A stretch of 64,000 nucleotides of DNA from Marivirga harenae (lineage in GTDB: Bacteria > Bacteroidota > Bacteroidia > Cytophagales > Cyclobacteriaceae): assembly GCF_030534335.1 (NCBI RefSeq), contig NZ_CP130565.1, positions 255,501 to 319,500 on the forward strand, written 5' to 3'. Below the pieces are notes generated by a model that did not search any database, was not told the DNA's origin, and saw nothing but the letters and a program-made list of their open reading frames with translations. Shown here piece after piece: positions 10,735 to 36,009 of this stretch. Position 1 is the first letter of the stretch. Each line of letters begins with the position of its first letter. A program made the translations under genes and the position numbers.

Positions 10735-10793
10735 GAAAATGTTTTTGAAATAGACCCTGCAAAGTAATTAGTGGTTGTAATACAAATAATTTA

Positions 10794-11402: not shown

Positions 11403-11461
11403 ATAGGTAAAGCATTCAAGATAACGAAGAAAGGATTTAGCAGTTCGGGCAAAACATGCAT

Positions 11462-12055
11462 TTATTTCTCTTCTGGTAATTCTACCACAATTTCATTCTT
11501 CCGATTAAAAAGCTCATATGGAGCATTGTAACCAAACATATAGAACTTATTAGTGTAAGTTATACCATTTTCTTCCAATGACGCAATCAGCTTCTTTTTA
11601 TTCTTTTCAATTTTGCTATCATCAGCCCATCCTCCAAAAGTGATGGCTGCCATTCTTCTCTGAGCTTGTTCTTTAATTTCAATATTTGACTGATTGGGTT
11701 TTGGCAAATCTTCTTTCTCATACTTTTGAGGAACCAAAAAACCCATAGTCATAGAGTCCTCCAACGACATACTTACAGGAGAGGTCATAGCAATTTTTTC
11801 ATTACTGTCATTTCCTCCAAAGATGTATGCTGCAAGCATTGAAAATCCTTTGCTAGACATTTTCTTATAACTACTACCTGGAAGCTTTACAGATGTGAAA
11901 AGACTCTTTTCATAAGAGCGGATCTCAAAGTTCTCGAACTTACGAACCACTTCATAATCATAGGTTTCAATACCTTTTTGACTATATATTGCAAATACCT
12001 GTACGAAAATAAAGACTAAAACAAGTACTGCTATTACAATAAACACAATTTTCAT
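11462..12055 (-). CDS. SOUL-type heme-binding family protein
   Basis: 197 residues. An N-terminal hydrophobic helix (about 2-20) acts as anchor or signal. A SOUL/HBP domain follows: YEVVRKFENFEIRSYEK, the hydrophobic YIFGGNDSNEKIAMTSPV loop, FLVPQKY, and the MFGYNAPYELFNRKNEIVVEL end. Relatives bind heme or act as small-molecule carriers, and in bacteria the role is mostly unknown. The protein would face the periplasm if the helix is a signal anchor. It precedes alkB on the same strand. Confidence 0.85.
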   Translation of the reverse strand: MKIVFIVIAVLVLVFIFVQVFAIYSQKGIETYDYEVVRKFENFEIRSYEKSLFTSVKLPGSSYKKMSSKGFSMLAAYIFGGNDSNEKIAMTSPVSMSLEDSMTMGFLVPQKYEKEDLPKPNQSNIEIKEQAQRRMAAITFGGWADDSKIEKNKKKLIASLEENGITYTNKFYMFGYNAPYELFNRKNEIVVELPEEK

Positions 12056-20958: not shown

Positions 20959-22035
20959 TTAAGCAGTTTGCCCAATTAATTTTAAGTGCCTTGTATGCGA
21001 CCCCATAGCGGCCATCATGGATGGAAATTCATTATAAGCAATATTGAATTGCTCACAAGTTTCTTTCACTAACTTATTGATTGCCGGGTAGTGCACATGG
21101 CTAATTCTTGGGAATAAGTGGTGTTCAACTTGGAAATTCAAACCGCCTGTATACCAATTTAAAACTTTACTTTTTGTTCCGAAATTAGCAGTAGTTCTGA
21201 TTTGATGAATAGCCCATTCTGTAGGAATGATTTTTTCTCCTTCAACAGGTGCATCATGGAAATCAGTAGATTCAACTACGTGAGCTAATTGAAATACCAC
21301 CCCAATAGTCCAGCCAGTTACAACTGATACGATTAGATATCCAAGTACAGTTGCTAAAACTCCTTTCATTAAGATTGGCAGTACAAAGAATGTTGTGATA
21401 TACGCTAATTTTGTAGCCCAAAAGATGATATGCTCTTTTGCACTCATTTTTGCTAATTCTGTATTGGCAACTTTTCTTGTGAAATACTTCTTAAAGTCTT
21501 GAAAGAAAACCCAAAATGCGTACGAAGTAGCATAAAGAGGATATGCATAAACATGTTGAAATTTATGATACCATCTTTTCTTTTGATGGGTTGATACTCT
21601 AATAAAAGGACCAATATTAATATCATCATCCATTCCTTCGATATTAGTGAAAGAGTGGTGATTCTTATTGTGTTTATTTTTCCAAATGAAAACTACGCCC
21701 CCCATTAAGTTTAAGGTAAGTCCCATCATATAATTTACATGCTTATTATTAGAGAAACTACCATGAGCTCCATCGTGCATAACATTGAAACCAATTGCGG
21801 CTAAATTCAAACCAAATATTGCACACAATGTAATAGAAAGCCATACTGGCATGCTTACAAATACAATTAAGCTGTAAAGGGTAGCAAAAGAAACCAATAA
21901 AATAGTGGCTTTAGTATAAAGTTTGCTGTTACCCCAGGTTTTCAAATCGTTTTGTTTGAAATAGGCGTCAACCTTCTTTTTCAGTGTTGGGAAAAAGTTG
22001 TTGTCAGTGATTTTTGTTGCTGATACTTCTTGCAT
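20959..22035 (-). CDS. Membrane fatty acid desaturase (front-end/acyl-lipid type)
   Basis: 358 residues. The three di-iron histidine boxes are HDGAHGS, HNKNHHSF and QVEHHLFP. A glutamine in the third box is typical of front-end (delta-5/delta-6 type) desaturases, though here no cytochrome b5 domain is fused. Hydrophobic segments lie at about 46-84, 99-115 and 204-245. It should introduce a double bond in membrane acyl chains using ferredoxin or another electron donor. The gene has its own terminator, and an upstream TAGATTTG box overlapped by an ACGAAACATT motif, so it is probably regulated singly. Regiospecificity cannot be told. Confidence 0.9.
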   Translation of the reverse strand: MQEVSATKITDNNFFPTLKKKVDAYFKQNDLKTWGNSKLYTKATILLVSFATLYSLIVFVSMPVWLSITLCAIFGLNLAAIGFNVMHDGAHGSFSNNKHVNYMMGLTLNLMGGVVFIWKNKHNKNHHSFTNIEGMDDDINIGPFIRVSTHQKKRWYHKFQHVYAYPLYATSYAFWVFFQDFKKYFTRKVANTELAKMSAKEHIIFWATKLAYITTFFVLPILMKGVLATVLGYLIVSVVTGWTIGVVFQLAHVVESTDFHDAPVEGEKIIPTEWAIHQIRTTANFGTKSKVLNWYTGGLNFQVEHHLFPRISHVHYPAINKLVKETCEQFNIAYNEFPSMMAAMGSHTRHLKLIGQTA

Positions 22036-22466: not shown

Positions 22467-23156
22467 TTGAAAAAGCAGAACAACATAGCGCTCATTTTCT
22501 TCAGCCGAAATAAAGCCGAGGAGGCAAAGCAAAAATCATGGTTTAAGGAGCAATCCAAAAATCAAATGCTTGCTGAAATGCTGATTACGAGGGCTAGTAC
22601 TGCTATTCAATCATCTGGAATTCCTGTTTATCATTTCAACGAAGCAAAGCAAATAGGGAATTCCTTTGGAGAAAGAATTGCAAATGCCTATCAGGCAATG
22701 TTTGATTTGGGCTATGAACAAGTAATTTCCGTTGGTAATGATTGTCCTGACCTACAAAACATTAATTGGATTGAATTATCTCAATCTCTCCAAAGTGGCA
22801 AATCAGTTTTAGGCCCAGATACAAGAGGGGGCGCTTATTTGATAGCTATTCAGAAAAAATCTTTCGATAAGTCACAATTTGAAAAACTAAATTGGCAAAA
22901 AAATACACTTTATGAGGAGCTTTCGCAACTCTGTGAAGAAACGACCGAACTAGTAGAATTAAACCAATATAGAGATATCAATTCTTTTCACGATATCCGA
23001 TTCTTATCCAGGCAGAAATCATTTACAAAGTCGTTCTTGAAATTAATTGCTCAACTGCTTCAAGGATTTAAAGGAATAGCAATTGAATTTCAAATAAAAT
23101 CGCACAACTTTTATATTTTCAAAGACTCCCCTTTACGAGCACCCCCAATAACATAA
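22467..23156 (+). CDS. DUF2064/TIGR04282-like glycosyl- or nucleotidyltransferase
   Basis: 229 residues from a TTG start, the only start that keeps the N-terminal strand IALIFFSRNKAEEAKQK. The fold is the GT-A type of DUF2064. GNDCPDL is the metal-binding loop and LGPDTRGGAYLIAI is the second loop, where relatives usually have a DGG instead of RGG. The first substitution-sensitive Asp is kept. A C-terminal extension of about 45 residues ends in SPLRAPPIT. The family is best known from arsenosugar and other sugar-transfer loci, but no arsM or arsS is nearby here. It opens a run of nine genes on the plus strand, 98 bases ahead of the binding protein. Confidence 0.72.
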   Translation: MKKQNNIALIFFSRNKAEEAKQKSWFKEQSKNQMLAEMLITRASTAIQSSGIPVYHFNEAKQIGNSFGERIANAYQAMFDLGYEQVISVGNDCPDLQNINWIELSQSLQSGKSVLGPDTRGGAYLIAIQKKSFDKSQFEKLNWQKNTLYEELSQLCEETTELVELNQYRDINSFHDIRFLSRQKSFTKSFLKLIAQLLQGFKGIAIEFQIKSHNFYIFKDSPLRAPPIT

Positions 23157-23254
23157 ATTTACCGCTTCTTTTTATAGCATCTCTTGGAGAATGAAAGATC
23201 CACAACTCACGAGTTTGCTTGTTCCTATTAATTATTAAAACACGATACAAAATT

Positions 23255-24472
23255 ATGATGCAAAGATTTTTATTCTTTTTGCTGTTTGCTATTACCCTAT
23301 TTTTGATGAGTTGTGAAAACCCTAAAGAATCCAGAAACTGGAAGCAAGCTTCGTGGCAAGAAATAGAACAACAGGCCAATGATACCACTGTCAATTTTAT
23401 GATGTGGCAAGGAAGCCCGATCGTCAATGATTATATCAACAATTATGTAAAACCTACTTTAAAAGAAAAGCACAACATCACACTGAATATTAGCAGCGGT
23501 CAAGGGCCGGAAATCGTGCAATTGATGATGGGTGAAAAGCAAGCGGGTTCTGAAAAGGGACAAGTAGATATGGTTTGGATTAATGGAGAAACATTCTTTC
23601 AACTTAGAAAAATAGAAGGACTTTGGGGTCCATTCACAGAGAAACTTCCTAATTCACAATATATTGACTTTAATAATCCATTTATCGGGATAGATTTTCA
23701 GCAAGAAATAAACGGGATGGAATGCCCATGGGGGATCAATCAATTTGCTTTTGTTTATGATTCTATTAAAACCCCTGCCCCACCTAAGACACTTGCTGAA
23801 CTAGAAACATTTGTAAAAGTAAATCCTGGCACTTTCACTATATCCAATGATTTCTCAGGCATGACCTTGTTAAAATGCTATATGGCCGAATTGAGCGGCA
23901 GTCCTGATGGATTGGATGGTGAATTTGATCAACAGAAATATGATACGCTTTCCACTCAACTTTGGGAATACATCAATCGAAATCGAAAATACTTCTGGAA
24001 AGAAGGACAGACATTTCCCAAAGAACACAGCAAAATGGATCAGATGTTTTCATCTGGAGAAATACTGCTCACTTATGGATTCAGTGAAGGTGGAATTGAA
24101 GAAAAAGTTTTACAAGGATTATTTCCAGAAAGTACAAAAGGTTATGCCTGGAAAAACGGAACTATCCTAAACTCTAATTATTTAGGGATCACCTATAACG
24201 CGACCAATAAAGCGGGGGCTATGCAAGTCATTAATTTCCTGATTTCACCCGAAGCTCAATTGAAGAGAGCGGAACCTTCAGGTATGAATGCCAATCCAGT
24301 ATTGGATATTTCAAAGCTTCCTACCGAGTACAAAGACAAATTTGAAAAAATTACTGCAAGGCAATACGGCCCTTCTTTGGACGAATTATCTGAGAATGCT
24401 ATAAAAGAGCCAGCTCCAGAGTATATGCTTAATATTTACGAAGATTTTAGAACCTACGTGATTGAAAAATAA
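23255..24472 (+). CDS. YnjB-like ABC transporter solute-binding lipoprotein
   Basis: 405 residues from the ATG at 23255. An upstream in-frame codon at 23219 would add 12 residues before the signal peptide and is less likely. The lipobox is FLMSCEN. The mature domain shows MMWQGSPIVNDYINNYVKP, VDMVWINGETFFQLRK, LWGPFTEKLPNSQYIDFNNP and MECPWGINQFAFVYD. These are the conserved blocks of E. coli YnjB, a family 1 binding protein related to ThiB and spermidine binders. The lipid anchor holds it at the inner membrane's outer face. Its stop overlaps the first permease gene. Confidence 0.87.
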   Translation: MMQRFLFFLLFAITLFLMSCENPKESRNWKQASWQEIEQQANDTTVNFMMWQGSPIVNDYINNYVKPTLKEKHNITLNISSGQGPEIVQLMMGEKQAGSEKGQVDMVWINGETFFQLRKIEGLWGPFTEKLPNSQYIDFNNPFIGIDFQQEINGMECPWGINQFAFVYDSIKTPAPPKTLAELETFVKVNPGTFTISNDFSGMTLLKCYMAELSGSPDGLDGEFDQQKYDTLSTQLWEYINRNRKYFWKEGQTFPKEHSKMDQMFSSGEILLTYGFSEGGIEEKVLQGLFPESTKGYAWKNGTILNSNYLGITYNATNKAGAMQVINFLISPEAQLKRAEPSGMNANPVLDISKLPTEYKDKFEKITARQYGPSLDELSENAIKEPAPEYMLNIYEDFRTYVIEK

Positions 24473-25316
24473 GGGAAAACATATCGGTTTTGTGCTATTC
24501 GTGGTATTTGCTGTACTACCATTTACGCTCGCATTTGGCTATGCTTTGCTCTATTCTTTCGGGATCATTGGGGTAGTTAATGAAGGCTTTACTTTATCGT
24601 TTTGGAAAGAGGTTTTTACATCAGGCACTCTAGGAACCTCCTTTTTATACAGTGGAATTATTGCTGCAGTAGGTGTATTTCTATCCGTTAGTTTGGCACT
24701 ATGGGTAGTTTTGAAATTCAAAGAAGGCTTCAATAATAAGTACTTATCTTTTATTATTTATATGCCCTTGGCAGTTCCCGGTATCGTTTCCGCATTTTTT
24801 ACTTATCAATTATTCGCTCAATCAGGATTTTTTGCAAGATTAAGCTATCAGCTCAATTGGATTGAAACAGCACAGCAATTTCCTGATTTAGTGAATGATA
24901 ATTGGGCCATTGGCATCATCATTACTTTCATTAGTCTGCTAACTCCTTTCTTCATTCTGCTTTATTTAAATATATATAAAGATGAAAGAATAGAAGAGCT
25001 AAGCCAATTATCCAGAGCACTGGGAGCAAACAAAAAACAAATAGCACTCAAAGTGAGCTTACCGATTATGCTCAAAAAGTCTTGGGTTTTAATTGTGCTG
25101 TACTTCATTTTCTTATTAGGCGCTTATGAAGTACCGCTAATTTTAGGTCAAGAATCTCCTCAAATGCTATCGGTGCTGATTTTACGAGAATTAAAACAAT
25201 TTGACCTTACTAAAACCTCAGAAGGTTATGTAATGGCGGTGGTCTACACAGTAGTCATTATGTCAGCGACTATATTCATTTTTTCACGAAAAAAACTGAG
25301 AAACAATGCGTATTAG
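24462..25316 (+). CDS. YnjC-like ABC permease, first half
   Basis: 284 residues from a TTG overlapping the end of the binding protein gene by 11 bases. Six hydrophobic helices are visible. The cytoplasmic coupling (EAA) loop is EELSQLSRALGANKKQIALKVSLP. E. coli YnjC is one protein with two such domains, whereas here the two halves are separate genes. It forms the inner-membrane channel with the next gene. The overlap with both neighbours points to tight translational coupling. Confidence 0.87.
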   Translation: MKNKGKHIGFVLFVVFAVLPFTLAFGYALLYSFGIIGVVNEGFTLSFWKEVFTSGTLGTSFLYSGIIAAVGVFLSVSLALWVVLKFKEGFNNKYLSFIIYMPLAVPGIVSAFFTYQLFAQSGFFARLSYQLNWIETAQQFPDLVNDNWAIGIIITFISLLTPFFILLYLNIYKDERIEELSQLSRALGANKKQIALKVSLPIMLKKSWVLIVLYFIFLLGAYEVPLILGQESPQMLSVLILRELKQFDLTKTSEGYVMAVVYTVVIMSATIFIFSRKKLRNNAY

Positions 25317-26079
25317 TTTAAAGCCTTTCTTCTTATCGATCATGGTATTGCTGATACTGTTTCCCTTTGTGTATCTACTTTGGCTGTCTCTTTCTGCAGA
25401 ATGGTCATTCCCAAATGTTATGCCTGAGTATTTCGGGTTAAAAAACTGGAAGGCCTTATTGATTTCAGAAACAGGCTTATTGTGGAGCTTTCTACAATCT
25501 ATCATCATTTCTGTTTCCGTAGGATTTACTGCCACTCTTAGTGGTTTTATTATCAGCCGGAATATTGCCTATCATCCTAGAAAGAACACCTTCACCTTAT
25601 TAAGCTATTTCCCTTACATTATCTCCCCTGTTGTTTTTGGGGCATGCTTAAGTTATTTCTTCCTCAAGCTTGGGATTTTCGGTCAAATGACGGGCGTGAT
25701 TGTAGCTCAATTCATGATTAGCTTTCCTTATGCACTGATTTTCTTTAATAGTTTTTGGGGGCAAAAAACAAAAAATATGGAAGATTTAGTCTCGACACTA
25801 GGTGGAAATAGACTGTATAGTTTCACGAAAGTTTTATTTCCATTGGCCAAAGGAATGCTCTTGGTCTGCTTCTTTCAAACATTCCTGATTTCTTGGTTTG
25901 AATATGGTTTAACATCTGTAATTGGAGTTGGCAAAGTGCAAACCCTCACCATCAAAGTATTTTTATTCATCCGCGAGGCCAACTACTTCTATGGTGCTTT
26001 AAGCTGCTGCTTATTGATTTTACCGCCATTAGTTCTGATGTATATCAACAAGAAATATGTATTTAATAAACTGACCTGA
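25306..26079 (+). CDS. YnjC-like ABC permease, second half
   Basis: 257 residues, overlapping the first permease by 11 bases. Six hydrophobic helices are visible, and the coupling loop is MEDLVSTLGGNRLYSFTKVLFPLAKG. It is the second half of the channel. Its TGA stop shares one base with the ATG of the ATPase gene (TGATG), typical of a coupled operon. Confidence 0.87.
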   Translation: MRISLKPFFLSIMVLLILFPFVYLLWLSLSAEWSFPNVMPEYFGLKNWKALLISETGLLWSFLQSIIISVSVGFTATLSGFIISRNIAYHPRKNTFTLLSYFPYIISPVVFGACLSYFFLKLGIFGQMTGVIVAQFMISFPYALIFFNSFWGQKTKNMEDLVSTLGGNRLYSFTKVLFPLAKGMLLVCFFQTFLISWFEYGLTSVIGVGKVQTLTIKVFLFIREANYFYGALSCCLLILPPLVLMYINKKYVFNKLT

Positions 26080-26819
26080 TGTTTTTAGAAATTCAACATA
26101 TTAATAAAAGCTTTGGCAAAGAGCAGATCGTAAAGGATCTGAATTTTTCGCTAGCTCCGCAAAAAACCTTAAGCATTTTGGGTAAATCTGGTTGTGGAAA
26201 AACCAGCATGCTTAAAATAATTGGTGGCTTGCTTAAGGCAGACAGTGGTAATATAATTTTGGATGGGAATGATATCAGCGAATTGGAAGCTGAGAAGAGA
26301 AATATCGTTTACCTCTACCAAGAAGATTTACTTTTCCCACACTTAAATGTATTCGAAAATATTGCATTTGGTCTTCGAATAAAAAAACAAAAAGAAGAGC
26401 ATATTCAAAGCAAGGTCAAGGAAATGCTGGAGCTTTTGGAATTGGAAAATCATGGCCAAAAAATGCCTCATCAGCTTTCAGGGGGGCAAAGACAAAGGGT
26501 TTCCTTTGGAAGAGCCATCATCATCAACCCTGCTTTGCTTCTATTAGATGAGCCTTTTGGTAGCCTAGATGCCGGCACTCGGCAAAGAATGCAACAATTA
26601 TTTAAAGACATAGCACATAAATTTAAGATCACCTCACTTTTTGTCACCCACGATTTGAAAGAAGCTATACTAATGGGGGATGAAATTGCCTTTATGCAAA
26701 GTGGAAAACTCAAATTATATAAAAATAAAGAAGAATTTATAGCAGACCCTTCAACTGGTGTGCAAAATGAAATCGGCTTTTGGGAAAATCTAATCCCAAA
26801 AGAACAAGACATAATTTAA
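26079..26819 (+). CDS. YnjD-like ABC transporter ATP-binding protein
   Basis: 246 residues. Walker A is GKSGCGKTS (about 36-44), the Q loop is in LYQEDLLFPHLNV, the signature is LSGGQRQRVSFGRA, Walker B is LLLLDEPFGSLD and the switch histidine is in VTHDLKEA. It powers the YnjBC-like importer. The importer set is complete (binding protein, two permeases, ATPase) and in the standard order. The imported substrate is unknown, and neighbours point to a nucleoside-like compound. Confidence 0.92.
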   Translation: MFLEIQHINKSFGKEQIVKDLNFSLAPQKTLSILGKSGCGKTSMLKIIGGLLKADSGNIILDGNDISELEAEKRNIVYLYQEDLLFPHLNVFENIAFGLRIKKQKEEHIQSKVKEMLELLELENHGQKMPHQLSGGQRQRVSFGRAIIINPALLLLDEPFGSLDAGTRQRMQQLFKDIAHKFKITSLFVTHDLKEAILMGDEIAFMQSGKLKLYKNKEEFIADPSTGVQNEIGFWENLIPKEQDII

Positions 26820-26830
26820 ATCAAAAATAT

Positions 26831-27757
26831 ATGGAAACGAAAAATATTTGGATTGATACCGACCTCTCTGTAGGCATGAAAAGACACATCAGAGAAGGAT
26901 ATTGCGATGTGGATGACGGATACGCACTGTTACAATTATTTAAAGCTGAAAATATCCATATAAAGGGGATAAGTGCAGTATTTGGAAATACTCTAATTGA
27001 TGACGCCTACAGACTTTGTCAGCAAATGAGTAAAGAATTTGCTAAGAATGAAATCCCTGTTTACAAAGGAGCTGGGACAGCAATTGATCTTAGCAAGGTA
27101 GAAACCAATGATGCTGTGGAAGCTTTGGCAACAGCCTTGAAAGAAACTCAATTGACCATTTTAGCTATCGGTCCAGCTACCAATGTGGGAATATTACTTT
27201 TGCAATATCCTGAATTGAAAAACCAAATTAAAGAAGTAGTTCTAGTGGCTGGAAGAAGAAAACCAACTGATTATTTCAAAATTGGCAATCAAGGAAATCA
27301 TGCAAGGGATTTAAATTTCGATTTAGATAATCAAGCTTTTAACATCATGTTTGAAGCAGGTGTCCCTGTCACTTTATGTCCTTTCGAAATTTCAAGCAAA
27401 GTATGGATTGGATCAGATGATCTAAAAAAACTAGATAATGGCGAGGCCGGAAATAAATGGCTAGCAGAGCATTCTCAGCCATGGTTAGCACAATGGATCA
27501 ATCAAGGCGCTAGTGGTTTTAATCCTTTTGATGTTTTGGCGAGCCACTACATCATATCACCCGAAGATATTATCAGTGAAGACCTAAAAGCACAATTAGA
27601 AATTCATCCAGACGATACAGTAAAGGACAATGACAAGTTAGTATTCAAGAACTACCTGCTGTGTCGTAGTGAGGGATCATTTCCTGTAAAATACTGCCAT
27701 GATGTGGTATCAGACTATCATGAAAAATTAATGGATTCTTTAACCAAAAAAAGCTAG
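26831..27757 (+). CDS. Variant inosine-uridine-preferring nucleoside hydrolase family protein
   Basis: 308 residues from ATG 26831; an in-frame codon at 26780 overlaps the ATPase gene and adds residues unlike the family. The calcium-binding N-terminus is split. IDTDLSVG is followed by about a dozen inserted residues before CDVDDGYALLQLF, where typical members have one compact DTDPGIDDALAL. AIGPATNVG and NQGNHARDLNFDLDNQAF match the family core. The C-terminal motif reads NPFDVLASHY, so the catalytic histidine of the usual HD pair is a phenylalanine. Expected reaction: N-glycosidic bond cleavage of a nucleoside or similar. Its place in the importer operon supports this. Confidence 0.82.
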   Translation: METKNIWIDTDLSVGMKRHIREGYCDVDDGYALLQLFKAENIHIKGISAVFGNTLIDDAYRLCQQMSKEFAKNEIPVYKGAGTAIDLSKVETNDAVEALATALKETQLTILAIGPATNVGILLLQYPELKNQIKEVVLVAGRRKPTDYFKIGNQGNHARDLNFDLDNQAFNIMFEAGVPVTLCPFEISSKVWIGSDDLKKLDNGEAGNKWLAEHSQPWLAQWINQGASGFNPFDVLASHYIISPEDIISEDLKAQLEIHPDDTVKDNDKLVFKNYLLCRSEGSFPVKYCHDVVSDYHEKLMDSLTKKS

Positions 27758-27761
27758 CACT

Positions 27762-28754
27762 ATGATTAAACTTGACAATCAATTAGAAACCATCGATAGT
27801 TATTTAAGCGATAAAAAATGGTTAGAAGAAAATGAAAAAGTAGCTTCAGTTGAAAAGCCTGGTGAAGGGAATATGAACTTTACCTTAAGATGTAGAACTT
27901 CAAATGACCACTCTTTCATCATAAAACAAAGTCGTGATTTTGTTGAAAAGTTTCCACAAGTACCCGCTCCAGCAGAACGGGTTCTAAGAGAATCTGAATT
28001 CTATGAAATTATTAGAAAGAACCCCGATTTAAGTCGTAGAACTCCTGAAATTATAGCGGTCGATGAAGAAAACCATATCATCCTGATGGAAGATCTGGGC
28101 GAGAGTAGTGATTACTCTTTTTTATATCAGGAGGGTAAGAACTTATCTGAAACCGAGCTCAAAGAAATCATGCACTTCATAGCCGATTTACACACCCATT
28201 TTACAACTGACAGTAGCTCGAAAACCATTCAGAATAAGGAAATGCGGCAGCTTAATCATGAGCATATCTTCAAATTCCCTTTTATGAAAGATAACGGGAT
28301 GAATTTGGATGATGTTATGCCAGGATTGGAAGCTGTGAAACAAAGTATAATTCGTAATGAAGCACTTCATTTAGCACTCAAGCAGCTTGGTGATCTGTAT
28401 TTATCTGATGGCAAGCACTTACTACATGGAGACTACTTTCCGGGAAGCTGGCTCAATACCAAATCAGGCTTAAAAATCATCGATCCTGAATTTTGCTTTT
28501 TTGGTCCTAAGGAATTTGAAATAGGAGTATGTATGGCACATTTATATTTGGCAAAACAACCCTACCCTATTATCCAGAAAGCAATGGATTTCTACAAAGA
28601 AAAAGCGCCCTTCGATGATGTATTAATGATGAAATTCATGGCTGTGGAAATGATGCGAAGAATCTTAGGATTAGCTCAACTACCGATCAGTCAAACACTG
28701 GAAGAAAGGAAAGCACTAGTGGAAAGAGGCGTCATGATGCTGACTAAATATTAA
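27762..28754 (+). CDS. MtnK-like phosphotransferase (APH/choline kinase fold)
   Basis: 330 residues, starting five bases after the hydrolase stop. The N-lobe has GEGNMNFTLRCR and the lysine in FIIKQSRDF; ILMEDLGE is the hinge. The catalytic loop is LLHGDYFPGSWL, and the metal-binding Asp is in LKIIDPEFCFFGPKEFEIG. The pattern IKQ...ME-DL...HGD...IDPEF is closest to methylthioribose kinase MtnK. It probably phosphorylates the sugar or another product released by the hydrolase. No mtnA or later methionine-salvage gene is visible, so methylthioribose itself is not assured. Confidence 0.78.
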   Translation: MIKLDNQLETIDSYLSDKKWLEENEKVASVEKPGEGNMNFTLRCRTSNDHSFIIKQSRDFVEKFPQVPAPAERVLRESEFYEIIRKNPDLSRRTPEIIAVDEENHIILMEDLGESSDYSFLYQEGKNLSETELKEIMHFIADLHTHFTTDSSSKTIQNKEMRQLNHEHIFKFPFMKDNGMNLDDVMPGLEAVKQSIIRNEALHLALKQLGDLYLSDGKHLLHGDYFPGSWLNTKSGLKIIDPEFCFFGPKEFEIGVCMAHLYLAKQPYPIIQKAMDFYKEKAPFDDVLMMKFMAVEMMRRILGLAQLPISQTLEERKALVERGVMMLTKY

Positions 28755-28771
28755 AAACCAAACACTATACA

Positions 28772-31700
28772 ATGAAGAAATTAATACTAATCTTATGCTA
28801 TTTGCTGAGTTTCCATCTATCTGCTCAAAATAGCAATACTTATTCTTCTGTAGTCATCGACTCAAGAGGAGAGCCTATTCCCGGGGCAGTTGTAAATGAA
28901 ATGGGTACTGAAAGATTTGCAGTCACTTTAAAAGATGGTAGTTTTCAACTGAAAACACCGTCTGAGAACTTCTTACTGAACATTCAATTCTTAGGCTTTG
29001 AGGATTTGCAGATAGATATTCGAAATGGAAATATCCCTGCTAACATCATGTTGACTGAAGATCTGGAGCAGCTCGATGAAGTGGTTGTAACTGCATTAGG
29101 GATTGAAAGAGAGAAGCAGTCTTTAGCCTCATCAATAGGAAAAATAGACAGCAAGCAGCTAACAGATGTACCCATGACAAATCTTGTTAACAGTATGGCA
29201 GGTCAAGTTTCTGGTGTCCAAATTACCAATGGTTCCTCAGGAGTGGGGTCCTCATCTAGAATTATAATCAGAGGTGAAAATTCTTTAACTGGCACTAATC
29301 AACCATTATTTGTGGTTGATGGCGTACCTATCAGTAACGAACAAATCACCAGCGATTTAGTAAACAACGGATCATTACAAGAAGTGGACTGGGGAAATGG
29401 TGGTGCTGAAATTGATCCAGAAAATATTGCTTCAATATTTATTTTAAAGGGAGCAGGATCTGCTGCCCTTTATGGTTCCAGAGCGGCAAATGGTGTTGTT
29501 TTAATCACTACTAAAAGAGGAAAGGCTCAACAAGGTTTAGGAATTAGCACGAGCAGTTCACTTACATTTGAAACACTCTTAACATTACCTGATTATCAAA
29601 ATGAATATGGTGGTGGAATTGGTGATTTCGCGTTTGATACAGGTCTTGGTGCCCTGGATGGAACAGCTGGCATTTTCAGCTACGGTCCAAAATTAGATCA
29701 AGGTGATTTAATAGCGCAATTTGATGGACCTTCTACTGATATCAACGGAAACCCTGTAAGGGGTGGAGATGTAATAGCTAGGACTCGGGCAGATGGTAGC
29801 TTGACAGAAATCAGACCAACTGAATGGGTATCTAGACCCAACAATATCAGGAATTTCTTTGAGACAGGCATCACGGCTCAAAATAATATTGCAGTAAATT
29901 CAGCTAGTGACAAAGGAAATATACGGCTGGCTTACAGCAACTTGCGAAATGAGGGTATACTACCTAATACTGATTTAAACAGAGACGGTCTGGCGATCAG
30001 TTTAGACCAACAATTAACTGACCAATTAAGTGTAAATACTTATGTTAATTACATCAATACAAGAAGTAAAAACCGCCCTAACTTAGGTTATGGCTACGAA
30101 AATGTAATGTATGGCTTTAACTGGACACAAAGACAAACAGACTTTGATCCGCTCAAAAATTATTGGCAGGCCGGTCAGGAAGGTTTAGAGCAGTTCAACT
30201 ACAATTACGCTTGGGTCAATAATCCTTACTTCACCTTATTTGAAAACACGAATAGTTTTGACAAGCATCGAGTTTTAGGAAATGCCTCTGCAAATTATGA
30301 TTTCAGTGAGAAATTACGTTTTACGGTAAGAAGCGGTACTGACATCTACAATGACAACAGGGCATTTCGAAGGGCACTAAGCACCAACGCCAATCCTACG
30401 GGTAGTTATCGTGAAGATCAGGTGTTTTATAAAGAAATGAATACAGATTTCCTACTGTCTTATTCCGATCGAATACATGAAGATTTCACTTATGATCTTT
30501 CGGTAGGAGCAAATCGCTTCGATCAGACCGTCACCTACAAATTTACTGAAGCTTCTCAACTAGCGCTACCAAATATTTATACATTAGCCAATTCTAATGC
30601 ACCCTTAACAGGGAATAATGAATTATTTGAAAAGCGTATCAATAGTATTTATGGCACAGGAAATATCAGTTTTAGAAATGCCCTCTATCTTGACGTTACC
30701 GTACGTAATGACTGGAGCAGCACGCTACCCATCGACAACAATTCATTTGCTTACTATTCAAGCGGCTTAAGTTATGTATTATCCAATATGGTAGAACTAC
30801 CACAGCTTTTCACTTTTGTGAAACTGAGAGCCAGTGCAGCCAGCGTAGGTAATGACACGGATCCATATCAACTGCTGAATACTTTTGCTTTCAACCAGAA
30901 CTATGGTGATAAGCTTAAGGTAACTAACCAAAGCACTTTAAAAAATCTGAATTTGAGGCCTGAAAGACTTACCGCCTACGAAACAGGAGCAGAAATTTGG
31001 CTTCTTAAGGATAGGATTCAAACAGATATTACCGTTTACCAAAACACTAGTACCGACCAAATCATTGCTCGGCCTATTTCCTTAACTACTGGTTTTGCCA
31101 ATAAACTGGAAAACGGTGGAAAAGTACAAACTAGAGGACTTGAAGCCTCAATCACAGGATTAGCCATCAAGCAAAACAACTTTCAATGGAAAGTAGCGGC
31201 TAATTATTCAGCTTACAGAAGTCGAGTACTAGAATTACCTGAAGGGGTAGATCAGTTCGTAACAGGTAATGCTGATTTCTTTGGCGGTGCAGGCGGCTCC
31301 AATTCTTTATTCTATATAGCTAAAGAAAATGGTCTAGTTGGAGATATGTACGGGACTGGTTTCAAAAAGGTAAACGGAAGAACCGTATATGACAGCAATG
31401 GAGCTCCTATTACAGACGGGACATTACGACTGTTAGGCAATTACAACCCTGATTTCTCTGTAGGTCTCAGCAATGAGTTCTCCTATAAGAATATAATCAT
31501 GAATGTCCTGTTTGACTTCAGATATGGAGGTATTATCGCTTCAAGGACAAGGTCTTTAGGTAATACTTCTGGAGTTTTGAAAGAAACTTTAGCAGGTCGA
31601 GAAAATGGAATTATTGGAGATGGAATAGTCAACATTGGAACCGAAGAAAACCCTAACTATGTCGAGAACACCACCAGTGTTTCAGCAATTTCTTACTATA

Positions 31701-31990
31701 ACGCCATTTACTCAAGAGGAAACGAAGAAAGCTCTATTTATGATGCTTCTTATATTAAATTGAGGCAAGTAGGTCTTTATTATAGTTTAAGTAAGCAGCT
31801 GAGCCAAAGAATCGGCTTCCAGAGTGTCAAATTTGGATTCATCGGCAGCAATCTTTTACTGTTCACCGAAAACCCTCATGTTGATCCCGAATTAAATGCT
31901 CTACAAGGCAGAAACATAGTACAGGGTGTAGATGATATGTCATTACCCTCCACAAGAAGTTTCGGTTTCAGCATTAAAACAAAATTTTAA
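28772..31990 (+). CDS. SusC/RagA-type TonB-dependent outer-membrane receptor
   Basis: 1072 residues. The signal peptide is MKKLILILCYLLSFHLSAQ. An N-terminal CarboxypepD_reg domain follows (VIDSRGEPIPGAVVNEMG). The conserved LDEVVVTALGI stretch leads into the plug (PLFVVDGVPIS, GSAALYGSRAANGVVLITTK). The barrel fills the rest and ends with the aromatic-tailed SFGFSIKTKF. It would form the outer-membrane channel with the SusD partner encoded 10 bases downstream. Being in one run with the YnjBCD-like importer is the notable point, because SusCD pairs usually serve glycans. Confidence 0.93.
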   Translation: MKKLILILCYLLSFHLSAQNSNTYSSVVIDSRGEPIPGAVVNEMGTERFAVTLKDGSFQLKTPSENFLLNIQFLGFEDLQIDIRNGNIPANIMLTEDLEQLDEVVVTALGIEREKQSLASSIGKIDSKQLTDVPMTNLVNSMAGQVSGVQITNGSSGVGSSSRIIIRGENSLTGTNQPLFVVDGVPISNEQITSDLVNNGSLQEVDWGNGGAEIDPENIASIFILKGAGSAALYGSRAANGVVLITTKRGKAQQGLGISTSSSLTFETLLTLPDYQNEYGGGIGDFAFDTGLGALDGTAGIFSYGPKLDQGDLIAQFDGPSTDINGNPVRGGDVIARTRADGSLTEIRPTEWVSRPNNIRNFFETGITAQNNIAVNSASDKGNIRLAYSNLRNEGILPNTDLNRDGLAISLDQQLTDQLSVNTYVNYINTRSKNRPNLGYGYENVMYGFNWTQRQTDFDPLKNYWQAGQEGLEQFNYNYAWVNNPYFTLFENTNSFDKHRVLGNASANYDFSEKLRFTVRSGTDIYNDNRAFRRALSTNANPTGSYREDQVFYKEMNTDFLLSYSDRIHEDFTYDLSVGANRFDQTVTYKFTEASQLALPNIYTLANSNAPLTGNNELFEKRINSIYGTGNISFRNALYLDVTVRNDWSSTLPIDNNSFAYYSSGLSYVLSNMVELPQLFTFVKLRASAASVGNDTDPYQLLNTFAFNQNYGDKLKVTNQSTLKNLNLRPERLTAYETGAEIWLLKDRIQTDITVYQNTSTDQIIARPISLTTGFANKLENGGKVQTRGLEASITGLAIKQNNFQWKVAANYSAYRSRVLELPEGVDQFVTGNADFFGGAGGSNSLFYIAKENGLVGDMYGTGFKKVNGRTVYDSNGAPITDGTLRLLGNYNPDFSVGLSNEFSYKNIIMNVLFDFRYGGIIASRTRSLGNTSGVLKETLAGRENGIIGDGIVNIGTEENPNYVENTTSVSAISYYNAIYSRGNEESSIYDASYIKLRQVGLYYSLSKQLSQRIGFQSVKFGFIGSNLLLFTENPHVDPELNALQGRNIVQGVDDMSLPSTRSFGFSIKTKF

Positions 31991-32000
31991 GAAGTAAAAA

Positions 32001-33446
32001 ATGAAAATATTCAACTATACATTCACCTTACTGCTAGCCGCTCTGTTAATTACGGCCTGCACAGATAACTTTGAGGAAATCAATGAAAATCCCAATTCCC
32101 CGGAAAATGTGGAGCCTCAATTTTTACTCACTAATATTATTTCAGTTTCTAGTGATCAGAATACCTACTATCAAGGCTTTGATCAGTCAAATTACTTTTC
32201 TCAACATGTTGCAGCGATTGACTTTGGATTTTTAGACAGATACATCATTGGTTCTAATTCAACCTATTGGGCTGTGGTAAATGGGTTGCTGACCGACATC
32301 AACTCAATGAAGGCATCTCCTACCTCAAATGAAGCATACGCAGCAGTAGGAGATATTATGAGGTGTTTCCTGTTCACCCAAATGACCGATATGTGGAATG
32401 ATGTCCCTTATACCGAGGCAGGAAGATTAGAGGAAGGAATTGACAAACCAAAATATGATACTCAGGAAAGTATTTATACGGATCCTGAAACCGGTATTTT
32501 AGCAGTATTGACAAGGTCAGCGAATACGTTAGAGAGCACAAATCAGCTGATAAACGGTGATGTAATGTTCAATAACGACTTGGATAAATGGGTAAGGTTC
32601 GCAAATTCGCTTCGAGTAAGATACCTGATGAGGATAAGCAAGAGATTGAATGACTTCTCTGAATTATCTTCTTTAGCCAACTCTGGAAAATTGATGGAAT
32701 CCAATGCAGATAATGCCGTATTGCCGTATTTGGCATCCGCTCCGAACCAGTTTCCATTTTTTCTTTCTTCTGTAGGTGGGTTAGTAGAGCATGTGATGAG
32801 CAAGACAGCTGATTCTGTCCTTAGCCTTTGGGATGATCCAAGGATTGCAGTACTATATCAGCCAGTAGCTGCCGGTTTAGCTAATGACTCTGTTTACTAT
32901 CGAGGCATCCAAAATGGTCAAACTAATGAGCGAGTGCAACAACTTGGACTAGGAGTCAATGATTTATCAGTTGTAGGATCAATTTTTAGGGATGTTCCTG
33001 ACGGAGCAGACGCACAATTCATGCAGTATGCAGAAGTACAATTTGCTTTGGCTGAAGCAGTTGAAAGAAATTATATTGCTGGAAATGTTCAGCAGTACTA
33101 TGAAAATGGAGTAAGAGCAAGTTTCGAATATTATGGTGTTGATGTCCCAGAAGACTACTTCTCAAGGGATGCAGTTGAATTGAACGGTACTGATAACATC
33201 ACCAAAATAATGACCCAAAAATGGTTGAGTCTCATCAATATTGGGCACGAAGCATGGTTCAACATCAGACGAACTGGCATACCTTCTTTACAGGCCGGAC
33301 CAGACGCAGTTAATGAAGGAAGATATCCTGTTCGGTATTTATACCCGGAATCAGAGCAAGCCACAAATACTGAAAATTATCAAGAAGCAGTCCAAAGAAT
33401 TGGTGGTGATGATATCAACAGCAAAGGATGGTGGGAACGTGATTAA
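32001..33446 (+). CDS. SusD/RagB-like outer-membrane lipoprotein (SusD-like_2 type)
   Basis: 481 residues. The lipobox is LITACTDN. The segment NENPNSPENVEPQFLLTNI is the typical beginning of the SusD-like_2 group, and helical TPR-like pairs such as LFTQMTDMWNDVPYTEA are clear. LVE and AEAVERNYI belong to the ligand-binding core. It forms the lid of the SusC channel on the cell surface. It ends the gene run; a hairpin terminator lies 40 bases downstream. Confidence 0.9.
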   Translation: MKIFNYTFTLLLAALLITACTDNFEEINENPNSPENVEPQFLLTNIISVSSDQNTYYQGFDQSNYFSQHVAAIDFGFLDRYIIGSNSTYWAVVNGLLTDINSMKASPTSNEAYAAVGDIMRCFLFTQMTDMWNDVPYTEAGRLEEGIDKPKYDTQESIYTDPETGILAVLTRSANTLESTNQLINGDVMFNNDLDKWVRFANSLRVRYLMRISKRLNDFSELSSLANSGKLMESNADNAVLPYLASAPNQFPFFLSSVGGLVEHVMSKTADSVLSLWDDPRIAVLYQPVAAGLANDSVYYRGIQNGQTNERVQQLGLGVNDLSVVGSIFRDVPDGADAQFMQYAEVQFALAEAVERNYIAGNVQQYYENGVRASFEYYGVDVPEDYFSRDAVELNGTDNITKIMTQKWLSLINIGHEAWFNIRRTGIPSLQAGPDAVNEGRYPVRYLYPESEQATNTENYQEAVQRIGGDDINSKGWWERD

Positions 33447-33579: not shown

Positions 33580-33933
33580 ATGGAACTAATATTTGTTTAC
33601 AATGCCAATTCAGGAAAATGGAATGGCTACATGGACATCATGCACAAAATATTCTCTCCCAAAACTTATCCCTGCAGCTTATGTGACATCACCTACGGGA
33701 CTTTCAAAATCAGGGAAGAATGGGCTGAATTTAAAAAGACTTTGGATATCCCGCTAACCTTTTTACACAAGGATGAATGGTTGGAACAATACGGAATTAA
33801 AGATAATCTCCCTGCTATTTTCATAAAAGAAGGTGAAGATATTAAAAATTGGATTCCTGCTGAAACACTGGATCAGCAGGATTTAGGATCATTGAAAAGT
33901 CTTATTGTGGAGAAATTGGAGATGGTTAAATAA
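33580..33933 (+). CDS. Small conserved-looking cytoplasmic protein with a CxxC motif
   Basis: 117 residues without signal or membrane helix. It opens MELIFVYNANSGKWNGYMDI and contains TYPCSLCDITYGTFKIREEW, then LTFLHKDEW and DNLPAIFIKEGEDI. The C-S-L-C pair with a following strand and the PAIF segment give it a loosely thioredoxin-like look. I recall similar unnamed Bacteroidota proteins but no defined function. It stands 134 bases after susD beyond a terminator, and it is divergent in function from the RAYT that faces it. Confidence 0.6.
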   Translation: MELIFVYNANSGKWNGYMDIMHKIFSPKTYPCSLCDITYGTFKIREEWAEFKKTLDIPLTFLHKDEWLEQYGIKDNLPAIFIKEGEDIKNWIPAETLDQQDLGSLKSLIVEKLEMVK

Positions 33934-33960: not shown

Positions 33961-34611
33961 CTAATTCTCAAAAAATCTATCCTCCTCCCAATTTTTAGTA
34001 TTATTGCGGATATATTTTTTGATCCTATAATATTCTTCTTTTGTTCTGATGATATGGTCATGGAATCGGGTTTGCCAGCCATTTTCCAAATTTAAACGAT
34101 TAGCATGTTTTGTAACAGCAGATTTGTAGGAACCAATAATGGATGAGATAGAATTTTTCCCAGGGTTTTGGAACCTGGTTTTGCCCGTCAATATTTCTGG
34201 ATTATTCATTTCCGTGGGTGTAGAGACAATGCATGCATTGTCTCTGCCGTACCCTGTTCTACCGTTATCAGCACCATCATTCCATAATGAATTAAAATCA
34301 AAAACCTCAAAATAGACAGGTGGCGGAAAACCATTTTGCAAAACCAATATTCCATGGATATGATTTGGCATTACCACAAACTCATCTAAATGCACTGATA
34401 TTGCGTGGTGGGGAATTTCATGCCAGAATACATTTGCCAAAATGCCCTGATGAGACAATTGCATTTTTCCATCGATTATTTCACCAAAAAAATGATGCCG
34501 ATCTTTTGTACAAATTGTAACGAAATAACTGGCATCCCATCTGTAATCCCATTTTTGCCTTCGGGCAGATGCTGTTCTATAGGTGTTTTTGAACTTTTCA
34601 CTCATAATCAA
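33961..34611 (-). CDS. REP-associated tyrosine transposase (RAYT, Y1_Tnp) with in-frame palindrome
   Basis: 216 residues of the IS200-like Y1 family. The metal-binding HUH pair is in VVMPNHIHGILVL, and the catalytic tyrosine is in SIIGSYKSAVTKH. RAYTs are single-copy, domesticated relatives of IS200 transposases that act on REP palindromes. Between the two motifs is a low-conservation insert including DNACIVSTPTEMNN, and its DNA is a 24-bp perfect palindrome. Typical members are about 170-190 residues, so the insert accounts for the extra length. The gene has no inverted repeats or partner ORF, so it is not an IS by itself. Confidence 0.88.
   Translation of the reverse strand: MIMSEKFKNTYRTASARRQKWDYRWDASYFVTICTKDRHHFFGEIIDGKMQLSHQGILANVFWHEIPHHAISVHLDEFVVMPNHIHGILVLQNGFPPPVYFEVFDFNSLWNDGADNGRTGYGRDNACIVSTPTEMNNPEILTGKTRFQNPGKNSISSIIGSYKSAVTKHANRLNLENGWQTRFHDHIIRTKEEYYRIKKYIRNNTKNWEEDRFFEN
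34222..34245. repeat. 24-bp perfect palindrome (REP-like) inside the RAYT gene
   Basis: The left half AGAGACAATGCA is followed immediately by its exact reverse complement TGCATTGTCTCT. The GTAGAGAC...GTCTCT form is that of REP hairpins that accompany RAYT genes in many genomes. It is translated in frame as GRDNACIVST. Confidence 0.8.
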
Positions 34612-34671: not shown

Positions 34672-36009
34672 CTACAACACATCATTAGCCAAATTGGCCA
34701 ATTCTGAACGCTCCCCTTTTTCGAGTGTGACATGCGCATACAGTTCATGTCCTTTTACCCTATCTATCAAATAGCTAAGTCCATTGGATTGGGAATCTAA
34801 GTAAGGCGTATCAATTTGATTAACATCACCAGTAAATACGATTTTTGTATTCTCTCCTGCCCTTGTAATAATGGTTTTCACCTCATGAGGTGTTAAGTTC
34901 TGTGCTTCATCAACAATAAAATAAATATTAGATAAACTTCTTCCCCTGATATAAGCCAAGGGCTGAATAGTTAATTTCTCCTTATTGACCATGTCCGTAA
35001 TATTCAAAAACTCTCGTTCATGCTCCTGAAATTGATGTTGAATATATTTAAGGTTATCCCAAAGCGGTTCCATATAAGGGTTCAATTTGGATTTTATGTC
35101 TCCAGGAAGATAGCCAATATCTTTATTTGATAACGGCACAATAGGTCTTGCTAAAAATATCTGTTTAAAATCTTTGCGTTGTTCCAAAGCAGAAGCTAAT
35201 GCAATCAAGGTTTTACCAGTACCCGCCACTCCTTGCAAGGTCATTAATTTTATTTCCGGATTAAGCAAGGCATGAATAGCAAAGGCCTGTTCTGCATTTT
35301 TAGGCATAATGCCATAAGCCGACTTTTTATCAACCTTATCTATTTGATTAGTCAATGCATTGTAATAACCCAGGGCTGAATTCTTATTACTTTTCAAAAT
35401 ATAAAAAGTATTGTTCATGGGTTTCTTCTTGCCCATAATGTCTGATACCTCACAATGATAAGTATCATAAAGCTTATTGATAGTCTCGGTGGTAACAGTC
35501 TCCAACTGCAATTTCCCTGAATGTAAATCACTCACATTTTTCACCTTACCTGTCTGATAATCTTCTGAGCGTAATCCACAGCTTTTGGCCTTCAACCGCA
35601 GATTAATATCCTTCGTGACCAAAATAACCGTTTTATCTTTTAACTCCTTTTGCAGTTGTACGGCACTTCCTAAGATTTTGTGATCGGGTATATCTTCTAA
35701 AAATATTTGATCTGATTCCACAGCTTCTTTGCTTGGCATCAAGACTTTAAATACACCTTTCGTCTTCCCATTCAATGGAATCCATTCACTCAAAGATTGG
35801 CCATCAGCCAATTTATCTATCATTCTGATGAACTCACGGGCTTCAAAATTCTTCGTATCATTTCCTTTTTTGAACTGATCGAGTTCCTCTAAAACTGTAA
35901 TAGGTATAGCCACATCATGCTCTGCAAAGTTCATGATGGAGTCATGGGAATAAATAATAACTGAGGTATCGAGTACAAATACTTTTTCTTCTTTCTTCGC
36001 CTTCGCCAT
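34672..36009 (-). CDS. PhoH2: PIN domain fused to PhoH ATPase
   Basis: 445 residues. An N-terminal PIN nuclease domain (about 8-140) starts VFVLDTSVIIYSHDS and keeps acidic residues in VLEELDQFKKG. The C-terminal PhoH domain has Walker A GVAGTGKT and Walker B YFIVDEAQNLTPHE, followed by VFTGDVNQID. PhoH2 proteins are RNA helicase/ribonuclease fusions. The start follows a 234-base gap that contains a striking 35-bp palindrome at 36175. Likely single gene. Confidence 0.93.
   Translation of the reverse strand: MAKAKKEEKVFVLDTSVIIYSHDSIMNFAEHDVAIPITVLEELDQFKKGNDTKNFEAREFIRMIDKLADGQSLSEWIPLNGKTKGVFKVLMPSKEAVESDQIFLEDIPDHKILGSAVQLQKELKDKTVILVTKDINLRLKAKSCGLRSEDYQTGKVKNVSDLHSGKLQLETVTTETINKLYDTYHCEVSDIMGKKKPMNNTFYILKSNKNSALGYYNALTNQIDKVDKKSAYGIMPKNAEQAFAIHALLNPEIKLMTLQGVAGTGKTLIALASALEQRKDFKQIFLARPIVPLSNKDIGYLPGDIKSKLNPYMEPLWDNLKYIQHQFQEHEREFLNITDMVNKEKLTIQPLAYIRGRSLSNIYFIVDEAQNLTPHEVKTIITRAGENTKIVFTGDVNQIDTPYLDSQSNGLSYLIDRVKGHELYAHVTLEKGERSELANLANDVL

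Follow-up and report, generated by a model that had tools for sequence, protein, structure and literature searches.

A predicted YnjBCD-containing import and processing cassette that alternates with ArsS in Marivirga

Results

The window analyzed here is a 64,000-nucleotide stretch of DNA of the marine bacterium Marivirga harenae (GCF_030534335.1, NZ_CP130565.1, positions 255,501 to 319,500 of the forward strand), and all coordinates are given within it. Nine plus-strand genes lie between 22467 and 33446, as the original prediction had described, and this observation was confirmed by the open reading frames and by family searches. The first gene (22467-23156, +, with a TTG start) encodes a DUF2064-type protein (PF09837, 55 bits), followed by YnjB (23255-24472, +), a substrate-binding lipoprotein with an LMSC lipobox by sight, for which we took ATG 23255 as the start rather than the listed TTG at 23219. 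YnjB scored 363 bits with NF008633, against a cut-off of 203. Next come permease A (24462-25316, +) and permease B (25306-26079, +), both PF00528, and a YnjD-like ATPase (26079-26819, +; PF00005), so that a binding protein over its cut-off stands next to permease and ATPase genes. The set continues with a variant of the nucleoside hydrolase family (26831-27757, +; PF01156, 116.6 bits), taken from ATG 26831 although the frame is listed from TTG 26780, and an MtnK-like kinase of the APH fold (27762-28754, +). It ends with a SusC-type TonB-linked outer-membrane protein (28772-31990, +; TIGR04056, 588 bits) and an adjacent SusD-like protein (32001-33446, +; PF12771 SusD-like_2, 276 bits).

From YnjB to SusD the genes overlap or lie at most 17 bases apart. 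Two gaps are longer: 98 bases between DUF2064 and the YnjB ATG, and 133 bases before a tenth gene (33580-33933, +), which encodes a 117-aa protein without a Pfam match and follows SusD in all 5 Marivirga cassettes. To the left lies a fatty-acid desaturase gene (20959-22035, -) and to the right a PhoH-like gene, named by sight (34672-36009, -). As the original prediction had stated, no glycan-degrading enzyme, as would be expected in a polysaccharide utilisation locus, was found by a Pfam scan of the nine proteins and the desaturase; such loci share the SusC/SusD pair, whereas the present locus has an ABC importer. No tRNA and no Rfam match at gathering score, and hence no indication at that threshold of riboswitch control, was found in the window.

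Two corrections to the original prediction were needed. The permease is split into two genes, which together correspond to the single permease gene of the Klebsiella locus, and the hydrolase, kinase and DUF2064 proteins all score below the curated cut-offs of the functions for which they were named. The hydrolase is below the cut-off of all four NCBIfam hydrolase models that it hits (best RihC, 87.7 against 382 bits), the kinase scores 128.6 bits with TIGR01767 (MTRK) against 275, and the DUF2064 protein scores 70.7 bits against 134 with TIGR04282, the arsenosugar glycosyltransferase model. The DUF2064 protein also lacks the KTRL motif seen in the canonical TIGR04282 protein of locus L148 (G and L denote genomes and loci of our sample), and carries a C-terminal LRAPP peptide.

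To investigate the hydrolase and kinase further, we aligned them with related proteins. In the hydrolase, the conserved aspartates of the metal site are retained (D9, D11, D28, D29 and D234 are invariant in the nine rows aligned). However, the protein has an extended loop between DTD and DVDDG, an Asp where RihA has the Glu of AEFN, and a Phe in place of the His that precedes the C-terminal Asp (the HD motif) in others; L077 and L098 have Trp at this position. By sight, the window hydrolase has no signal peptide; the 10 aligned hydrolases next to YnjBCD have none, while the 4 aligned ones away from it seem to have one. The kinase (HGD, IDPEF and EMMRRILGLA motifs) keeps the HGD, IDPE and RR motifs of solved MtnK when aligned to 2olc and 2pyw, the RR motif having a role with the substrate. 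Predicted structures of the hydrolase (mean pLDDT 46.5) and of YnjB (37.8), made with the window sequence and one named relative only, were too poor to use.

Conservation of the genes in relatives had been named beforehand as a test of the prediction, and the set was found in the same order in 5 of 10 Marivirga genomes (G008 with one extra gene) and in three genomes labelled f26, which is far from chance. M. sericea (L016) is one of the cassette-bearing Marivirga. Related YnjBCD loci across Bacteroidota carry an MTA-phosphorylase-like enzyme (6 of 26 YnjB loci) or a radical-SAM protein in the hydrolase's place. The phosphorylase-like proteins are also below the cut-offs of the named functions, and in 6 of 6 GHK stands where solved MTA phosphorylases have the start of DYD. 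Outside Bacteroidota, a hydrolase lies directly before YnjBCD in Peptoclostridium, 1 of 9 annotated loci read. The closest known importer is the E. coli/Klebsiella-type YnjBCD. In the Klebsiella locus the order of binding protein, permease and ATPase is the same, but the importer is joined to carboxymuconolactone decarboxylase, sulfurtransferase and CDP-alcohol phosphatidyltransferase genes instead of SusCD, hydrolase and kinase.

The original prediction had read the locus as a dedicated pathway of outer-membrane capture, ABC import, glycosidic cleavage and phosphorylation for a nucleoside-like or S-ribosyl-like nutrient. This interpretation is partly supported. A dedicated outer-to-inner-membrane uptake set, conserved together with a hydrolase and kinase, is supported, and a glycoside-type substrate is further supported by the phosphorylase replacement and the Peptoclostridium locus. 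In methylthioadenosine salvage or the DHAP shunt, a nucleosidase or phosphorylase is paired with an MtnK-type kinase, and here too a hydrolase precedes a kinase. Nevertheless, recycling of methylthioadenosine or S-ribosyl compounds through an MtnA-type isomerase is not supported for this genus and is unlikely in it, since TIGR00524 was absent from 22 of 25 genomes examined, including 10 of 10 Marivirga and the 4 f25/f26 cassette genomes tested. The isomerase was present in the other three, G329, G419 and G376; 3 of the 4 phosphorylase-type cassette genomes labelled f42 that were tested have it, so such recycling remains possible there.

What the original prediction missed, and what is new here, is the alternation of the cassette with ArsS, the radical-SAM enzyme that starts arsenosugar biosynthesis; it is the strongest clue to the substrate. 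In Marivirga, YnjB is present in G000, G002, G003, G004 and G008, with the hydrolase in the same five, and ArsS in exactly G001, G005, G006, G007 and G009; no ArsS over cut-off was found in the window's genome (best E 1.7e-10), which has an importer instead of this adenosylating enzyme. In a second genus (g133), YnjB is in G329, G403, G419 and G451 and ArsS in the other eight of 12. Thus, 22 of 22 genomes carry one and none carries both. In a 395-genome sample of the phylum, 0 of 21 YnjB genomes were over the ArsS cut-off, compared to 155 of 374 others (Fisher p 3e-5, not corrected for kinship). In plasmid records, none of 51 with ArsS was among the 40 of 82 with YnjB that were compared, which makes this weak evidence.

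In Marivirga the two modules occupy the same site. The orthologue of the desaturase gene borders ArsS in all 5 ArsS-bearing Marivirga loci read, and the orthologue of the PhoH-like gene borders the ArsS-AhpD site in G006 and G007. G004 (cassette) and G001 (ArsS) pair in the flank tree with 99.0% identical desaturase DNA, yet differ at this site. It is conceivable that the alternation is an accident of lineage history and one recombination hotspot, without functional equivalence: the Marivirga site is an exchange hotspot, the counts are small, kinship is not corrected, and many Bacteroidota have neither gene. We consider this the least likely of the explanations, because g133 shows the same exclusion with no shared flank above 45% identity between YnjB and ArsS loci, and because three state changes, counted by hand, fall on the Marivirga flank trees.

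To ask whether the receptor is shared, we searched the window SusC against three ArsS genomes, chosen because a SusC of this type lay near ArsS. In each, its best match was that SusC (848-860 bits; next 723, 593 and 579). DUF2064-SusC-SusD stand directly beside ArsS or AhpD-ArsS in L148, L166 and L169. However, this is a minority pattern. SusC of this type lies in 3 of 20 Bacteroidota ArsS loci and window-type DUF2064 in 1 of 20, plus 2 of the 5 Marivirga ArsS loci; none of the 20 has the hydrolase or kinase, and a PNP-family gene is in 2 of 20. Furthermore, a second SusC of G238 (46%, 928 bits), with neither ArsS nor YnjB in the 20 kb examined, is closer to that of the window than the ArsS-side ones. 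ArsS loci (TIGR04167) occur with TIGR04282, TIGR04283 and in some cases the MtnP family; MtnP-family phosphorylases and TIGR04282 were found in 2 of 4 annotated plasmid ArsS loci and not in the other two. The arsenite methyltransferase model NF008823 was over cut-off in 12 of 12 g133 genomes whatever their state, in 1 of 10 Marivirga (G002; weak in G006 and G007, absent in G000), and in G012 and G046 of six others, although ArsS loci can carry another ArsM, so that these counts speak neither for nor against arsenic methylation.

Discussion

We infer, tentatively and at somewhat less than even confidence, that the block is a one-compound uptake and processing cassette that functionally replaces the ArsS module. 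In this view, SusC/SusD would carry the compound across the outer membrane, YnjB would bind it in the periplasm, the two permeases and YnjD would import it, the variant hydrolase would cleave its ribosyl bond, and the MtnK-like kinase would phosphorylate the freed, probably 5-modified, ribose at C1, with the DUF2064 protein acting on the product or accompanying the receptor. Because genomes hold either this cassette or ArsS, the compound most likely belongs to the pathway that ArsS starts, that is, a 5-deoxy-5-substituted riboside such as an arsenosugar or its adenosine precursor, scavenged in place of being synthesized. Our analysis establishes the gene set, its conservation, the alternation with ArsS in two genera and in the phylum sample, the same-site exchange in Marivirga, and a SusC/SusD/DUF2064 type shared with some ArsS loci, whereas every reaction step, the substrate, its binding and the involvement of arsenic are inferred. 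Several observations sit poorly with this view. Phosphorylase-type cassettes still carry a kinase, which phosphorolysis should make needless; some ArsS loci have their own SusCD, so that uptake and ArsS are not simply opposites; and G426 has a hydrolase-kinase pair and also ArsS. The rarity of the SusC link and the closer SusC of G238 lowered our confidence further.

An alternative is that the cassette scavenges and catabolizes ordinary or modified nucleosides, as originally predicted, and that the alternation is a by-product of niche or of a shared insertion site. The hydrolase, MTA-phosphorylase-like and MTR-kinase-like families act on nucleosides or ribose derivatives, and the Peptoclostridium locus and the isomerase of f42 cassette genomes agree with this. 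Still, it seems unlikely given the sub-cut-off scores, the GHK substitution, the lost His and the missing isomerase in Marivirga, and it does not explain the exclusion from ArsS in g133 or the SusC near ArsS. It is about equally unlikely that SusCD imports one compound, for example a methylated arsenical or another ArsS substrate, which ArsS adenosylates in some genomes and the YnjBCD cassette handles differently in others, without salvage of an ArsS product. SusC/SusD/DUF2064 of this type do stand beside ArsS in G344, G005 and G009 and with YnjBCD in the window, but ArsS-AhpD without adjacent SusCD fills the site in G006 and G007, and a hydrolase and sugar-kinase family suit a riboside, not a small arsenical.

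YnjBCD has no agreed substrate, as the original prediction stated, and no title or abstract opening in a partial literature search assigns one. The alternation narrows the question from any nutrient to one pathway, giving a concrete lead, and G004 and G001 are a natural pair of near relatives that differ at the locus. If the substrate is an arsenosugar-type riboside, this would point to an uptake route for organoarsenicals in marine bacteria and suggest that the product of ArsS is worth importing, which bears on why arsenosugars are made at all; a review calls the uptake of arsenosugars largely unknown, in a passage on animals and people (PMC12608789). A bolder possibility, which we regard as unlikely but not excluded, is that YnjBCD-family importers, in this branch with SusCD, take up arsenosugars or the equivalent ribosides of ArsS, and that bacteria swap at one chromosomal site between making and scavenging them, as they do with vitamins. 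The compound would then be needed, not merely a detoxification product.

Because some cassettes hold a radical-SAM protein, we also considered queuosine salvage by the hydrolase QueK and the radical-SAM lyase QueL. The best solved relatives of that radical-SAM family were YydG and BtrN, at E of about 1e-5, no entry named queuine lyase was among the 17 sequences up to E 0.1, and passages of PMC11130926 make no mention of SusC or TonB. This reading was set aside. Finally, an RNA element at the end of DUF2064, suggested by the conserved LRAPP, was rejected because the codons vary between loci, so selection is on the peptide.

Gene content of the cassette

To verify the gene content proposed in the original prediction, we examined the open reading frames and scanned the proteins with Pfam and NCBIfam models. 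The nine predicted plus-strand genes at 22467-33446 are present at their predicted positions, and the observation is therefore confirmed. The models identified DUF2064, YnjB (over its cut-off), two permeases, an ATPase, a member of the inosine-uridine hydrolase family, an APH-fold kinase closest to methylthioribose kinase, SusC and SusD. From YnjB to SusD the genes overlap or lie at most 17 bases apart. A tenth gene, at 33580-33933 (+), encodes a 117-aa protein without a Pfam match; it follows SusD and is kept in all five Marivirga cassettes. Because the hydrolase, kinase and DUF2064 proteins score below the curated cut-offs of the named functions, their functions are assigned at the family level only.

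A hydrolase 91% identical to that of the window is found in Marivirga sericea. When we compared the window's genome with nine others of its genus, the cassette was present in 5 of the 10.

Conservation across Bacteroidota and beyond

To ask how widely the set is conserved, we searched 395 genomes of the phylum. A YnjB match was found in 22, of which 21 pass the cut-off. We then examined 26 YnjB loci: the window, four from other Marivirga, one from genome G012 and 20 from the phylum sample. A DUF2064 gene of this type is in 16 of 26, and an outer-membrane receptor is in 17 (SusC of this type in 9, another TonB-dependent type matching PF25183 in 8). A variant nucleoside hydrolase is in 9, an MTA-phosphorylase-family enzyme in 6, and a radical-SAM protein in 7, with one locus (L020) having both hydrolase and radical-SAM. 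An MtnK-like kinase is in 14 (8 of the window's type, 6 more distant). Five of the 26 loci show none of the three enzymes; however, two of these (L059 and L069) are short contig ends, and the other three (L052, L062 and L064) are G+C-rich (63-68%), where our simple gene calling dropped frames.

In the same 395 genomes, a hydrolase profile built from YnjB-linked copies gave 8 matches at E 1e-20 or better. Five were below 1e-160, all in YnjB genomes, while three weaker ones were in genomes without YnjB (G426, G210 and G199). At three loci without YnjBCD (L098, L099 and L100), copies of the variant hydrolase with an apparent signal peptide lie beside the MtnK-like kinase, and L099 and L100 also have DUF2064 and a TonB-dependent receptor. 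A radical-SAM profile, built in the same way, gave 8 matches, six in YnjB genomes and two in genomes without it (G327 and G445). This radical-SAM family (L020 at 11070-12026; also L049, L054, L055, L058, L096, L097 and L101) has CxxxCxxC, PCCPGT and CLWCDEF-like motifs and accompanies YnjBCD, or only DUF2064 and, in L096 and L097, a receptor; no close named family or solved relative was found.

Outside the phylum we read nine annotated YnjBCD loci, leaving out a tenth that had no annotation. In one of the nine, that of Peptoclostridium, a hydrolase with similar loop features lies directly before YnjBCD. Six of nine have a CDP-alcohol phosphatidyltransferase, five a FAD-dependent oxidoreductase, four a TVP38/TMEM64 gene, three a carboxymuconolactone decarboxylase, and one (Pseudoalteromonas) DUF547 and a sterol desaturase. 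The Sinorhizobium stretch shows none of these, although its gene table is incomplete.

Sequence features of the enzymes

Alignments indicated that the hydrolase keeps the aspartates of the family but has a longer loop after DTD, Asp where RihA has the Glu of AEFN (Glu is kept in the copy from locus L077), and Phe or Trp in place of the His before the C-terminal Asp. Judged by eye, the 10 aligned YnjBCD-linked copies lack a signal peptide, while the 4 aligned copies away from YnjBCD (L021, L098, L099 and L100) seem to have one, as expected if the enzyme follows its substrate. In the phosphorylase-type cassettes GHK stands, in 6 of 6, where two solved MTA phosphorylases have TDY of the TDYD stretch. 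The window's kinase keeps HGD, IDPEF and the RR motif of solved MtnK. DUF2064 (22467-23156) lacks the KTRL motif of the canonical TIGR04282 protein of locus L148. Most DUF2064 copies of this type, in the window, L053, L148 and others, end in an LRAPP-like (or KGSP-like) peptide encoded by varying codons.

A link to ArsS

The closest DUF2064 model, TIGR04282, is named by NCBI as an arsenosugar biosynthesis protein, and one of the radical-SAM loci (L101) also held a TIGR04283 protein over its cut-off. Two annotated plasmid ArsS loci hold ArsS, TIGR04282, TIGR04283, an MtnP-family phosphorylase and a TVP38/FAD oxidoreductase, and one of them also holds DUF547 and a sterol desaturase. In two other such loci, no MtnP-family or TIGR04282 gene is annotated in the stretch. 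According to a review (PMC12159101, citing Cheng 2021), ArsS adenosylates arsenic in oxo-arsenosugar biosynthesis.

To investigate this link further, we searched for ArsS in the phylum sample. ArsS is over cut-off in 155 of 395 genomes, but in 0 of the 21 YnjB genomes (Fisher p 3e-5, not corrected for kinship). Within Marivirga, YnjB is in G000 (the window's genome), G002, G003, G004 and G008, and ArsS is in exactly the other five, G001, G005, G006, G007 and G009. Within a second genus, g133 of family f42, YnjB is in G329, G403, G419 and G451, and ArsS is in the other eight. Thus, 22 of 22 genomes hold exactly one. Although two Marivirga drafts (G001 and G007) are only 86-88% complete, in both of them ArsS itself sits at the site. 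The two radical-SAM genomes without YnjB (G327 and G445), as well as two genomes with DUF2064, receptor, kinase and secreted hydrolase but no YnjB (G199 and G210), also lack ArsS over cut-off. The alternation has its limits, since many Bacteroidota hold neither gene, and G426 has ArsS together with a separate hydrolase-kinase pair.

Exchange at the same chromosomal site in Marivirga

We next compared the loci themselves. In G006 the order is desaturase, ArsS, AhpD-like gene, a 295-aa gene and PhoH-like gene, and the next two genes match the right side of the window at 89 and 93%. In G007 the interval is about 2 kb, and in G001 the contig ends after desaturase-ArsS-AhpD. In G003 the cassette stands between the same desaturase and the same 295-aa and PhoH-like genes. 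In the window, a gene that looks by eye like a REP-associated transposase (33961-34611, minus strand; Y1_Tnp only at E 0.53) sits between the cassette and the PhoH-like gene, where G003 and G006 carry the 295-aa gene. In G005 and G009 the site holds ArsS-AhpD plus DUF2064, SusC (42%), SusD (34-35%), an SSS-type symporter and a phosphatase-like gene, the last two named by sight. G002 carries its cassette elsewhere.

DNA trees were built from one, two or three flank genes, with the third missing in G001, G005 and G009, the second missing in G008, and G002 not included. These trees put G004 (cassette) and G001 (ArsS) together with support 1.0, and the desaturase genes of the two are 99.0% identical. 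Counted by hand, each tree needs three state changes. Recombination of the flanks is not excluded. In g133, no flanking gene above 45% identity is shared between the YnjB and ArsS loci fetched, indicating that the exclusion there does not come from one site.

Receptor shared with some ArsS loci

Among 20 Bacteroidota ArsS loci, a SusC 41-43% identical to that of the window lies near ArsS in 3 (G046, G344 and G234), with an SSS-type symporter and a phosphatase-like gene, and a window-type DUF2064 is in 1. In those three genomes, that SusC is the best match of the window's SusC, with a clear gap. However, the link is not exclusive: the cassette genome G238 has a second SusC (46%) that is closer still and has neither ArsS nor YnjB in the 20 kb fetched. 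No hydrolase or kinase of the cassette was seen in the 20 ArsS loci.

Taken as a whole, our best but still tentative reading is that the cassette supplies from outside what ArsS lets other bacteria make: a 5-deoxy-5-substituted riboside, which would be cleaved and phosphorylated after import. The gene set, its conservation, the alternation with ArsS and the exchange at one Marivirga site are observed directly, while the substrate and each reaction are inferred. There are weak points, as the phosphorylase cassettes keep a kinase, some ArsS loci have their own SusCD, and the one arsenite methyltransferase searched, which is not the only ArsM type, does not track either state. Literature searches for arsenosugars in connection with TonB-dependent uptake, Bacteroidota and transport, ArsS, radical SAM or nucleoside phosphorylase found, among open-licence papers, none whose listing describes such an uptake system. 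The original prediction, that the locus is a dedicated uptake and salvage pathway for a nucleoside-like or S-ribosyl-like nutrient, is only partly supported; MTA recycling is unlikely in Marivirga because the isomerase is missing.

In the ArsS locus L150, a phosphatase-like region is joined in one frame to an AhpD-like region (10627-11868), beside ArsS, an SSS-type symporter and SusCD.
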